Shown here piece after piece: positions 45,161 through 50,158 of a DNA stretch of 64,000 nucleotides. Position numbers and translations under genes: made by a program. The stretch is from Pelagibius sp. (GTDB lineage: Bacteria; Pseudomonadota; Alphaproteobacteria; Kiloniellales; Kiloniellaceae). Location: positions 1 through 64,000 of the forward strand of contig NZ_JANQOI010000189.1 in the NCBI RefSeq assembly GCF_028289705.1, in the 5' to 3' direction. The first letter of the stretch is position 1. The number at the start of each line of letters is the position of its first letter. Under the pieces are notes generated by a model. That model saw nothing but the letters and a program-made list of their open reading frames with translations, had not been told where the DNA came from and searched no databases.

Positions 45161-45231
45161 CCGGCCCGCTCCTCCACCCGGCCACCCACTAGGATAATCA
45201 CATTGGGTGGCCGGGTGGGGGTGCGGGCCGG
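45161..45231. repeat. 28-bp stem hairpin after the divergent SDR gene
   Basis: Positions 45161-45188 pair with 45204-45231; 26 of 28 positions match (one further is a G-T type pair) across the 15-base loop CTAGGATAATCACAT. It starts 23 bases after the SDR stop. It is far longer than an ordinary terminator stem and has no U-run. It may be a terminator, an mRNA end, or a relic of a palindromic repeat element. Confidence 0.7.
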
Positions 45232-45389
45232 CACCGATTCGACGTAAGTCGAAGATGCCAAAGGCGCCAACCGTCGCGGCGGTTGATCAAGTTTCTGTGA
45301 CATTTGTGGAAAGGGGAGGGATAGCTCGGCCTCGGCGCCCGTAGCACCGATCACACCATGGCTTGGAGGCAGCTCTGGAAGGATCGGAT

Positions 45390-46121
45390 ATGTTCAAGCA
45401 GATTGTTCTGGCCGCATGTGCGGCCCTGGTATTCACCGCAAGTCCCGCCCTGGCGGATGACGATGATGACGACCGCCGGGGTGACCGCTGGCATCGCCAT
45501 GCGCACCACGATCATGGCTGGCATCACAGCCACGGCTGGTATGAGGAGAGACGGCACCACAGGAGGGCCCGGCCGCACTCCCACTACGAACATCGCAAGC
45601 ACAAGCATCGCAAACACAAGAAGAAGGTGGTGAAGCACGTCTACCATCATGGCCACGAGCACCACGGTCATGGGCACCACGGCCACAAGAAGCACAGGAA
45701 AGCGAAAAAGAAGGTCTACGTCGAAAAGCACGTCTATCACCACTACCCGAAGCGGCACGGCCACGCTGGGTATGGCCACCACGGCCACCACGGCAAGCAC
45801 GCCCATGGGCGCCGCCATGACGACAGGGACTGGGCCATCTTTGCGATCCTGGCCCTGCAGATCGTCGATGTCCTGAACGAGAGCCAGCGGCACAGTTATG
45901 CGCTCGCCCAGCGGCGGGCGACGGTCGCCCCGCTGGGCGAGTCGATCCGCTGGAACGACGGCTCGGCCCGCGGCCAGGTGATCGCCGTCCGTGACGGGCA
46001 GGACAGCGGCGGACGCTATTGCCGGGAGTTCCAACAGGAGGTGGTGATCGGCAACCAGCGCCAGGCGGGCTATGGGATTGCGTGCCGCCAGCCGGACGGT
46101 GCCTGGGAGATCGTTTCCTAG
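45390..46121 (+). CDS. secreted histidine-rich protein with surface-antigen-like C-terminus
   Basis: 243 residues. A signal peptide ends near ASPALA/DDD (residue 22). Residues 35-143 hold about 39 histidines in HH, HGH and KHK runs, with two copies of a KKK...KHVYHH unit, preceded by six aspartates. The rest, from DWAIFAILAL, ends in GRYCREFQQEVVIGNQRQ and YGIACRQPDGAWEIV, which resembles the C-terminal part of 17-kDa surface-antigen-like proteins, with two cysteines. It probably sits in the periplasm or on the surface and binds Ni, Zn or Cu. ATG 45390 follows GGAAGGA. No metal transporter is adjacent. Confidence 0.75.
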   Translation: MFKQIVLAACAALVFTASPALADDDDDDRRGDRWHRHAHHDHGWHHSHGWYEERRHHRRARPHSHYEHRKHKHRKHKKKVVKHVYHHGHEHHGHGHHGHKKHRKAKKKVYVEKHVYHHYPKRHGHAGYGHHGHHGKHAHGRRHDDRDWAIFAILALQIVDVLNESQRHSYALAQRRATVAPLGESIRWNDGSARGQVIAVRDGQDSGGRYCREFQQEVVIGNQRQAGYGIACRQPDGAWEIVS

Positions 46122-46437
46122 CACCTCTGCGAGGCCCCTGGCGCTGAGCCCTAATGGGGACCTTCCCGCGGTCCGAAGACCCATGCGGGAAGGTCCCCTG
46201 GCTCATGGGGCTGGGTAGGGATCACCCATTCGCCGAGGACCGAATATCCAAATTCCGGCACGGTAACATTGATCTCTGTCAATACCTTAGGCATGGAGGC
46301 CTAATAGCCTGCGATATTCCAGGCTGCCGGCCCTTGCCCTTGCGGTGGGCGTCGCCGATCTGTCATCAATTGGCGACATCCGGCGTGCTATAGCGGCCGG
46401 AAATGGCGTATCATGCCCTGAGGATCTGGAGTAGCGC
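46122..46437. other. 316-base intergenic region before ppk
   Basis: No gene was found. It holds the hairpin at 46156-46198. The rest is less GC-rich than its neighbours. CTGTCAA (46276-46282) and CTGTCAT (46360-46366) resemble single PhoB half-sites; the second is followed at the right 11-base spacing by only a weak match. These could tie ppk to phosphate starvation but the evidence is thin. Confidence 0.35.
46156..46198. terminator. long hairpin after the histidine-rich gene
   Basis: GGGGACCTTCCCGC (46156-46169) pairs perfectly with GCGGGAAGGTCCCC (46185-46198). Its 15-base loop contains a nested GGTC/GACC stem (46170-46173 with 46178-46181). It begins 35 bases after the stop at 46121. There is no U-run, so Rho-independent termination is uncertain; it would also protect the mRNA end. 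Confidence 0.55.
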
Positions 46438-48633
46438 GTGGAAGACGGCAACGCTGTAACCTTGGACGTCGAGCCGCTGGAGCACGAGTCGGACCTGCCG
46501 GAAGGCTCGAAGCTGGCGGCCATCGACCTTGCCTCGCCGGAGCGTCTGATCAACCGCGAGATCTCCTGGCTTGCGTTCAACGAGCGCGTCCTCGAAGAAG
46601 CCTACAACGCCAATCATCCGCTTTTCGAACGGCTGCGGTTTCTCTCGATCTCCGCCAGCAATCTGGACGAGTTCTTCATGGTGCGCGTCGCCGGGCTGCT
46701 CGGGCAGATTCGTGCCGGCGTCAAGGCGCGCACGCCCGAAGGCCTGACCCCGGGCCAACAGCTCACGGCAATCAACGAGCGGGTTGCCAAGCTGTTGCGC
46801 TGGCAGCAGGAAAAGTGGCACGACCTGATCGGCGAGCTTAAGGCGGAAGGGGTAGCCGTCGTCGGCGCCCGCGAACTGAAGCAGTCCGAGCGCCGCTGGC
46901 TGGACGACTATTTCACCGAACAGCTCTATCCGGTGCTGACGCCAATCGCCATCGACCCGGCGCATCCCTTTCCCTTCATCCCGAACTACGGTCTCTGCCT
47001 GGTGGTGGAACTGCAGGGCGATGAGGACAACAACCAGATCAACGGCCTGATACCGCTGCCGGCGAAGATCGATCGCTTCATCAAGCTTCCCGGCGACGCG
47101 GCGCGCTTCATTCGTCTGGAGGAACTTCTAAAGCTCTACTTCGACGAACTCTTCCCGGGGTTCAAGGTCAACTCCGCAGGGTGCTTTCGCGTGCTGCGGG
47201 ACAGTGACCTGGAAGTCGAGGAAGAGGCCGAAGACCTGGTGCGGGTTTTCGAAAGCGCCCTGAAGCGCCGGCGCCGCGGCTCGGTGATTCGTCTGACCGT
47301 AGATGCCGACATGCCGACGGCTCTGCTCGACTTTGTCATCCGCGAACTGCAGGTGGACAACGAAAACGTCTTCCCGCTGGACGGCATGCTGGGACTGGCG
47401 GACACCAAGGAGATCATCAACGACGAGCGCCAGGACCTTCTCTTTCCCGCCTACAATCCGCGGTTCCCGGAGCGCATCCGCGACTTCGGCGGCGACTGCT
47501 TCGCGGCCATCCGCGCAAAGGACTTCGTCGTTCATCACCCCTACGAGAGCTTCGACGTCGTCGTGCAGTTCGTACGCCAGGCGGCCAACGATCCGGCCGT
47601 CGTGGCGATCAAGCAGACGCTCTACCGCACCTCGGAAGATTCGCCCATCGTCAAGGCGCTGACCGAGGCGGCGGAGGCCGGCAAGTCGGTGACCGCGCTG
47701 GTGGAGCTGAAAGCACGCTTCGACGAAGAACGCAACATTCGCTGGGCCCGCAATCTCGAGCGCGCCGGCGTGCAGGTCATCTACGGCTTCATCGAATTGA
47801 AGACCCACGCCAAGATCTCCCTGGTGGCGCGCCGGGAGGGCGAGTCGCTGCGGACCTATGTGCATTACGGGACCGGCAACTATCACCCGATCACCGCGCG
47901 GATCTACACCGACATCTCATTCTTTTCCTGTGATCCCCTGCTGGCGCGCGATGCCACCCGCCTGTTCAACTACATGACGGGCTACGCCAAGCCCAAGGCC
48001 ATGGACAAGATCGCCTTCGCGCCGCTGACCCTGCGCTCGACCCTGCTGAAGCACATCGAAGCGGAGATCGCCCATGCAAAGGCGGGGCGGCCGGCGGCGA
48101 TCTGGGTCAAGCTGAACTCCCTGGTCGATGCCGAGATCATCGATGCGCTCTACAAGGCCTCCCAGGCGGGTGTCTCCATCGACCTGATCCTGCGCGGCAT
48201 CTGTTGCCTGCGGCCGGGTGTGCCGGGTCTGTCGGAGAACATCCGGGTCAAGTCCATCGTCGGGCGGTTCCTGGAGCACAGCCGGATCGTCTGCTTTGGC
48301 GCCGGCCGGCCGCTGCCGTCGCCGCAGGCCAAGGTCTTCATCTCTTCGGCCGATTGGATGCCGCGCAACCTGGACCGGCGTATCGAGACCCTGGTCCCCA
48401 TCGAGAACGCGACGGTCCACCAACAGATGCTCGACCAGATCATGATCGCGAACCTGAACGACGAGGCGCACTCCTGGATCCTGGAACCGGAGGGCACCTA
48501 TCGGCGGATCCGCTCCACCGCCAAGTCGTTCAGCGCGCATACCTATTTCATGACCAATCCCAGCCTCTCCGGGCGCGGCTCCGCCTTGAAGAAGTCGAAG
48601 AAGGCGCCGCGGCTGGTGCTCAGGAAAACATGA
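46438..48633 (+). CDS. ppk1: polyphosphate kinase 1
   Basis: 731 residues. [18 protein letters not shown] and the catalytic His region [16 protein letters not shown], then VHYGTGNYH, identify PPK1. It is a phospholipase-D-like cytosolic or membrane-associated enzyme that makes polyphosphate from ATP. The frame starts with GTG at 46438 after GGAG (46427-46430). The start context nearly repeats that of gmk. ppx follows 7 bases later, so synthesis and breakdown genes are cotranscribed. Confidence 0.96.
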
Positions 48634-48640
48634 CGACCTA

Positions 48641-50158
48641 ATGGACGCAGCATCGCGGGCGGGGGTCTCGACGCTTCCAAGATCAGCCAGGAAGGATGGC
48701 CGCCTGGCGGTCATCGACATCGGGTCGAATTCGATTCGCCTCGTCGTCTTCGACGGTTTGAAGCGTGCGCCAGCCACCGTGTTCAATGAGAAGGTCCTCT
48801 GCGGCCTGGGACGGGGGCTGGAGCGCAGTGGCCACCTCAATCCCGAGGGTGTTGCCCTCGCCATTCCGAACCTCGTGCGCTTCACCGCGCTGGCAAAGGC
48901 CATGGGTATCGAACGGGTCGACCTGATCGCCACGGCGGCCGTCCGCGATGCCGAGGACGGCCTCGATTTCGTCGAGGCGGTCCAGCAGGAAACCGGCCAT
49001 ACCATTCGCGTCTTGAGCGGTGCCGAGGAGGCGCAGCTCTCGGCGCTCGGTGTGATCGCCGGCAACCCCGACGCCGACGGCATCATGGGCGACCTGGGCG
49101 GTGGCAGCCTGGAACTGGTCGAGGTGAACAACGGCCAGATCGGCCACGCGACGACGCTGGCGCTGGGGCCCCTGCGGCTGATGGAAAGCTGTGGAGACGA
49201 CCGTCAGACGGCGCGGGCGCTGATCGACCAGACGCTGGGGAAGGTGGATTGGCTGGCCGCCGGCGCCGGCCGCGCCTTCTATCCGGTCGGCGGTGCCTGG
49301 CGGAACCTGGCGCGCCTGCACATCGAACAGAAGCGCCACCCACTGCGCGCCATCCACGGCCATACCATTCTCAGCGACGAAGCCATCAAGCTGACGCGGC
49401 TGGTCAGCCGGCAGGGCAAGAGTTCGCTTTCCGGGATCGAGTTCATCTCCAGGCGGCGGCGCGAGACGCTCCCGCTCGGCGCGCTTGTACTTTCACGCTT
49501 GTTGAAGGTCACAAATTCGGCTGCGATTACCTTTTCCACTTACGGCCTGCGCGAAGGCTATCTCTTCAACCAGCTTTCCAAGCGCCTTCAGGGTGAGGAT
49601 CCTCTGATCTCGGCGGCGGCAGAGATCGCCAAGCGCGAGGGACGCTTCGGCGGGCTGGGAAGCAGTCTGATGACTTGGTGTGCGCCGCTGTTTCCCCAGG
49701 AAACCAAGGAAGAGGCTCGCCTTCGCCTGGCGGCCTCGCATCTCTCCGACCTCGGCTGGCGTGAGCACCCGGACTTCCGCGCCATTCAGGCGCTGCGGCG
49801 TATCCTGCATTTTCCGCTTGTGGGTATCGACCATCCCGGACGCAGCTTTCTGGCCTATACGGCGTTCCTGCGCTATGGCGGGGTGGTCGACGCGCCGGAA
49901 GCGGCGGTAGCCACGGCACTGCTGACGGAGGATTGGCGTGAGCGCGCCCGGCTACTAGGCTCGGCGCTGAGACTGGCCTTTCGGGTGTCCGGCGCGACAC
50001 GCGGTGTGTTGGACCGAAGCCACTTGAACGTGGACGGCAGTGCCTTGGAACTGATCCTTCCCGACGACGGCTCGGTTCCCGACGGCGAGGCCGTCCAGCG
50101 GCGCCTACGCACCCTGGCCCTGGTCGGCGGCTTCGAAGAGGCCCGCATCGTCGTTTGA
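48641..50158 (+). CDS. ppx: exopolyphosphatase (Ppx/GppA)
   Basis: 505 residues. AVIDIGSNSIRLVVFDG, GAEEAQLSALGVI and GDLGGGSLELVEV are the phosphate-binding loops of the ASKHA fold. The C-terminal third (HPLR..., RREGRF...) contains an HD-like helical domain as in long Ppx. It degrades polyphosphate and may act on pppGpp. It is coupled to ppk1 by a 7-base gap. Confidence 0.94.
   Translation: MDAASRAGVSTLPRSARKDGRLAVIDIGSNSIRLVVFDGLKRAPATVFNEKVLCGLGRGLERSGHLNPEGVALAIPNLVRFTALAKAMGIERVDLIATAAVRDAEDGLDFVEAVQQETGHTIRVLSGAEEAQLSALGVIAGNPDADGIMGDLGGGSLELVEVNNGQIGHATTLALGPLRLMESCGDDRQTARALIDQTLGKVDWLAAGAGRAFYPVGGAWRNLARLHIEQKRHPLRAIHGHTILSDEAIKLTRLVSRQGKSSLSGIEFISRRRRETLPLGALVLSRLLKVTNSAAITFSTYGLREGYLFNQLSKRLQGEDPLISAAAEIAKREGRFGGLGSSLMTWCAPLFPQETKEEARLRLAASHLSDLGWREHPDFRAIQALRRILHFPLVGIDHPGRSFLAYTAFLRYGGVVDAPEAAVATALLTEDWRERARLLGSALRLAFRVSGATRGVLDRSHLNVDGSALELILPDDGSVPDGEAVQRRLRTLALVGGFEEARIVV

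Follow-up and report, generated by a model that had tools for sequence, protein, structure and literature searches.

A histidine-rich gene and its place in Pelagibius genomes

The window analysed here, a stretch of 64,000 nucleotides of a Pelagibius contig, contains a gene for a small protein crowded with histidines (HISR), which raises the question of whether such a protein exists to handle metal or whether its histidines are an addition to a protein whose conserved role lies elsewhere. To answer it, the locus was compared across eight Pelagibius genomes, the window's own (G000) and seven others of the same genus. A literature search returned nothing on the HISR protein or its architecture. 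The gene and its neighbours are as follows.

45390-46121, plus strand: histidine-rich gene (HISR), open reading frame running from ATG to TAG, 243 amino acids
44359..45138, plus strand: SDR (adh_short_C2), upstream neighbour, from Pfam and synteny
46438..48633, plus strand: ppk1 polyphosphate kinase, downstream neighbour, from Pfam and synteny
48641-50158: ppx, behind ppk1

Over the last 95 codons, compared with six orthologues, pS was 0.54-0.75 and pN 0.08-0.22. With synonymous change saturated and non-synonymous change low, the HISR gene is real and its C-terminal domain is under purifying selection. The GC3 of HISR is that of the neighbouring genes. A longer frame beginning at a TTG at position 45363 was considered and is disfavored, because what is conserved there is the DNA sequence and not a reading frame. 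The antisense open frame opposite HISR (45351-46184, minus strand, 277 codons) is probably a composition shadow of the histidine-rich, GC-rich frame and no gene.

All eight Pelagibius genomes share one gene order: purN and purM (leftward), a DUF2066-type gene, an AI-2E-type permease gene, hda, SDR, HISR, ppk and ppx, then an M23 peptidase gene and rnd (leftward), where the gene names other than SDR and ppk were assigned by reading the sequences. Four genomes of the sister genus carry hda-SDR-ppk-ppx without HISR, with an SDR-ppk gap of ~220-262 bases. Since HISR is present in every Pelagibius genome and absent from the four sister genomes, it is an apparent insertion in an older cluster, and we infer, taking the direction from these outgroups, that it entered in the Pelagibius lineage. 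In the sister-genus gap (L095-L098) a stretch ahead of ppk, TGACAYAAAACGGTAATAATAT...GCTATTAGCTGGATCGAACCC, is conserved and is probably the ppk promoter of that genus. On the other side of the gene, the window has ~100 additional bases, missing from the other genomes, that separate SDR from HISR. They hold a palindrome, CCGGCCACCCA...TGGGTGGCCGG (45178-45214), an interspersed repeat of which the genome contains 31 copies with exact arms.

An export signal followed by a probably disordered histidine-rich linker

The protein can be divided into four parts, with a repeated motif in the second.

45390..45455, plus strand: signal peptide, residues 1-22, MFKQIVLAACAALVFTASPALA, from sequence; signal-peptidase-I type, cleavage before DDDDDD
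45456..45830, plus strand: linker, residues 23-147 (125 residues), from composition; 39 His, 16 Lys and 16 Arg, beginning with six aspartates
45633..45650, plus strand: first KHVYHH motif, residues 82-87, in the context KKKVVKHVYHH; kept as KHVYH in the closest orthologues
45726..45743, plus strand: second KHVYHH motif, residues 113-118, KKKVYVEKHVYHH; kept in the closest orthologues
45831..45929, plus strand: hydrophobic helical segment, residues 148-180, WAIFAILALQIVDVLNESQ..., from alignment A4 and structure models
45942..46118, plus strand: five-strand beta domain, PF16998-like, residues 185-243, from profile, alignment and models

Every one of the eight Pelagibius orthologues retains the A-x-A|D cleavage site, which supports export through a Sec-type signal to the periplasm or envelope. 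A lipobox with a lipidated cysteine was looked for and rejected, the signal ending in A-x-A|D in all eight; the sole cysteine of the signal (residue 10, in LAAC) does not make one, because it lies too early and, judged by eye, is not conserved.

HISR has 40 histidines in total and at most 39 in any stretch of 109 residues, where the runner-up among open frames of at least 150 codons in the 64 kb has 16; at the 2% His level of the flanking genes, a density like this has a binomial probability of ~1e-37. The original prediction had given about 39 histidines per 109 residues, six aspartates after the signal peptide and two KHVYHH repeats, and each of these was found: the count is exactly 39, the aspartates stand directly behind ...ASPALA, and the repeat is taken as real because both motifs recur in the closest orthologues (the window protein and four others). 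The linker includes tracts rich in HxH, HGHEHHGHGHHGH and HGHHGHHGKHAHG, and the longest run of consecutive histidines in the window protein is 2. The linker is predicted to be disordered, as an AlphaFold2 model leaves it unstructured, with pLDDT of ~36-49 per block across residues 1-150.

Linkers of the eight Pelagibius orthologues range from 84 to 138 residues, with 17-31% His (15 His in 89 residues in G004) and a net charge of +11 to +20. They can barely be aligned with one another, yet the histidine fraction and the positive charge are kept.

The C-terminal domain and its relatives

The C-terminal part is modelled with pLDDT mostly of 81-94. Its beta domain was matched by hmmscan to PF16998 (17kDa_Anti_2) at E 1.8e-4 and 21.7 bits over positions 60-112 of 116, which agrees with the predicted likeness to the C-terminal part of 17-kDa antigens, though the score is below the curated cut-off of 26.6 bits. 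Proteins of the same architecture elsewhere exceed that cut-off (L053, 31.8 bits; L036, 28.1 bits). Across a 12-sequence alignment YCREFQQE, YG-AC and PDG-W are invariant, and the domain motifs can be written as an invariant YCREFQ followed by a conserved YGxAC..PDGxWE, in which Cys211 and Cys232 may form a disulfide. This supports homology of the beta domain with the C-terminal half of 17-kDa surface antigens, as judged by sequence. Structural searches added no relative: Foldseek gave no match for the C-terminal domain at E <= 0.001, VIA reached Z <= 6.6 (for an integrative pilus model), a score no higher than is usual for models that lack a clear match, and a profile search by sequence found no solved structure with this domain. 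Weak Pfam matches in the orthologues (a phytopathogen-effector family, a Zip transporter and others) are considered composition artefacts, because they fall below the cut-offs and over the N-terminal or low-complexity part.

With the 17-kDa surface antigens (PF16998 + PF05433) HISR shares the beta domain, YCREFQQ...YGxACRQPDGSWEI. Where the canonical antigens have a glycine zipper (PF05433), HISR has a single hydrophobic helix; it gave no PF05433 match at E 1, whereas the canonical L032 and L038 do match, L032 being a member in the same genome with 43.2 bits for PF16998 and 38.8 bits for PF05433. HISR also differs from the 17-kDa lipoproteins in its signal-peptidase-I signal, its histidine-rich linker and its lack of a lipobox. 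With no lipobox, and one hydrophobic helix for the zipper, it is not a classical 17-kDa lipoprotein. Nor is it categorically new: it is a surface-antigen-domain protein with a variant tail and helix. From the Sec signal through the low-complexity charged linker and the hydrophobic helix to the beta domain, HISR is built like a set of proteins (L037, L053, L057-L061, L131) found in other Alpha- and Gammaproteobacteria. The RDVVxxRPxGHxYxGYG motif of those relatives is loose at best in Pelagibius, and their linkers, unlike that of HISR, are K/N-rich (L057), D/R-rich (L058, L060), R/E/Q-rich (L059, L061) or R/D-rich (L037); a further linker of this architecture, in L063, is H/D/G-rich. Inside the genus, a paralogue in G005 (L054 = L036) has a P-rich linker and 8 His in its open frame. 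Histidine is low in most homologues. Since the linkers differ across lineages and in the paralogue, the conserved core is the helix with the beta domain, and histidine richness is a genus-level trait of a compositionally shifting tail that does not define this type of protein. In G005 (L036:5112-6417) the gene immediately upstream of the paralogue encodes an ECF sigma factor, and a MacB/FtsX-type permease gene adjoins the paralogue, neighbours that suggest a link to envelope stress.

Conserved signals on either side of the gene

One conserved element precedes HISR and further ones lie between HISR and ppk.

45340..45389, plus strand: leader including the Shine-Dalgarno sequence GGAAGGATCGG, from conservation; possible CCGATC...GATCGG stem
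46155..46234, minus strand: candidate small RNA, a 5' hairpin with a C-rich loop (GATCCCTACCCAG) and a 3' GC-rich hairpin
46241..46246, minus strand: candidate -10 element, TATTCG in the window; TAnnnn in six of six genomes, always 22 nt from the FNR-type box
46269..46282, minus strand: FNR/FixK-type box, TTGA(C/T)-N4-(G/A)TCAA, with one mismatch in the window

Over the 48 nt before the start codon, the seven orthologous loci diverge from the window copy by 4-23%, compared with 54-75% at synonymous sites. A model built from these copies recovered the leader, which is single-copy, in all eight Pelagibius genomes and in none of 50 others. We read this leader as a candidate translational control element. 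Its fold, in which CCGATC pairs with GATCGG, is weak (z -1.65), and the stem is offered only as a possibility because it shows no covariation and no compensatory change at all. A conserved upstream open frame was rejected, because its third codon is TAG in G002 and its ATG is absent from G007 and G003. Rfam matches in the region are all far below their gathering scores, both those to microRNAs of animals and plants (45161-45231) and those to CcsR1 on the minus strand.

Downstream lies a single-copy, 80-base two-hairpin element. Six of the eight Pelagibius genomes carry it, and the remaining 52 genomes in the search, 50 from other genera, do not; in G001 and G005 both the element and the FNR-type box are missing. 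Read on the minus strand, it has the same two-hairpin fold in all six genomes (z -4.0 to -5.5), and the plus-strand folds differ among them in the second hairpin. Two-sided changes occur at 5 of its 24 pairs, a count that is approximate because the alignment of the first hairpin is partly out of register, an A and its T partner being lost together in three genomes. The box lies 55-57 bases from the element's GGGTAGGG in all six, and the leftward layout (box, 22 nt, TAnnnn, 6 nt, hairpin start) is kept in the six to within 1 nt. Spacings to the genes vary, at 156-171 bases from the box to ppk and 35-60 from the HISR stop codon to the element. Such a spacing of box, -10 element and start is that of class II FNR promoters. 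The genome encodes Crp/Fnr-family regulators, including L146 with FNR-like N-terminal cysteines. The layout in six genomes, the conserved fold and the encoded FNR-like regulator together support the minus-strand element as a candidate FNR-dependent small RNA, whose terminator U-tracts are weak. A GATCAC(A)CCAT resemblance had suggested that this RNA pairs with the HISR leader, but its duplex energies were equalled or bettered by 37% to 98% of background windows, and the resemblance was discarded as evidence.

Taken together, the leader of the HISR mRNA and a convergent FNR-dependent small RNA could form an oxygen-controlled envelope module specific to Pelagibius, in which a fall in oxygen would bring the small RNA to act on HISR, through antisense pairing at the 3' end or through termination, or else on other mRNAs. 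We regard this module as speculative and improbable. To our knowledge, neither such a translational leader nor such an oxygen-controlled small RNA has been described in the genus Pelagibius.

Function of the histidine-rich protein

The reading that we favor, by a little over even chances, makes HISR an envelope protein with a polycationic, metal-capable tether for a tail, the conserved role falling to the helix and the beta domain. Once exported, these two would bind a membrane face or pack on other envelope proteins, as surface-antigen lipoproteins do, while the disordered tail would span the periplasm as a flexible polycation and associate with anionic envelope polymers. Because the linker is histidine-rich in Pelagibius, the tail may also bind transition metals (Zn, Ni, Cu) loosely and reversibly; judging by composition, metal binding is chemically likely, and metal buffering would then be a lineage-specific extra and not the defining job of the family. 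The amount of protein would probably be tuned post-transcriptionally through the conserved leader. A comparison with SlyB, which we take to be a glycine-zipper relative, is one of analogy and not of membership, because HISR has no zipper. Under stress SlyB, itself an outer-membrane lipoprotein, assembles into rings that enclose outer-membrane proteins (PMC13067283, a review).

The original prediction was of metal storage or uptake at the cell surface or in the periplasm. Its location and its domain stand, with export to the periplasm or envelope supported in all eight genomes; its metal function, which draws only on histidine content, is putative. In the strong form of this prediction, HISR would exist to store metal in the periplasm or to aid its uptake, with a tail that captures Zn, Ni or Cu and hands it on, and the HxH tracts, the dense stretch of the window protein and the histidine-rich linkers of all eight orthologues speak for it. 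With 17-31% His kept genus-wide, metal binding could even be what the protein mainly does in Pelagibius. There are known proteins to compare. RcnB-type periplasmic Ni/Co proteins are small and exported and have charged, histidine-containing stretches, as does HISR, in which hmmscan found no RcnB domain (no Pfam match at E 1). Histidine-rich disordered stretches are also known from exported metal-handling proteins, namely ZepA (PMC10957091) and PA4063 (PMC8561739). ZepA, an extracellular zinc-handling protein, resembles HISR in being exported and in beginning, once mature, with a flexible stretch that contains histidine and acidic residues (PMC10957091), but no PEP-CTERM sorting signal of the ZepA kind was found in HISR with Pfam or NCBIfam, the protein ending in ...PDGAWEIVS. 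Against a dedicated store, none of the eight genomes links HISR to a metal transporter, a metal enzyme or a metal regulator, which agrees with the earlier remark that no nearby transporter explains it, and the eight upstream regions hold only isolated matches to consensus strings for metal-regulator boxes, none of them shared between genomes. The modest histidine count of G004 and the low histidine of most homologues and of the paralogue count against it as well, and we consider metal handling unlikely as the main function.

The fast turnover of linker sequence and length, together with a composition that depends on lineage, speaks for the linker as a mere disordered spacer in which histidine would have drifted up without chemistry that matters. 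We think this distinctly unlikely, given that the histidine fraction and positive charge are kept genus-wide in linkers that hardly align and that the two KHVYHH motifs persist in the closest orthologues. Binding of polyphosphate by the His/Lys-rich protein would account for its position beside ppk and ppx, an adjacency seen in all eight genomes, and His repeats bind polyphosphate in vitro (PMC11094774). The window protein, however, has no histidine run longer than 2, SDR and ppk are adjacent without HISR in the sister genus, and the HISR-ppk gap holds signals of its own. Polyphosphate made by PPK is mainly cytoplasmic and HISR is exported, and we hold a polyphosphate role to be highly improbable.

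HISR shows a widespread, uncharacterised envelope architecture in which a conserved small domain is joined to an interchangeable low-complexity tail, here a dense His/Lys polymer. This opens the question of whether the chemistry of such tails matters, or only their length and charge. The same locus adds, for Pelagibius, a conserved translational leader and what may be an oxygen-controlled small RNA.
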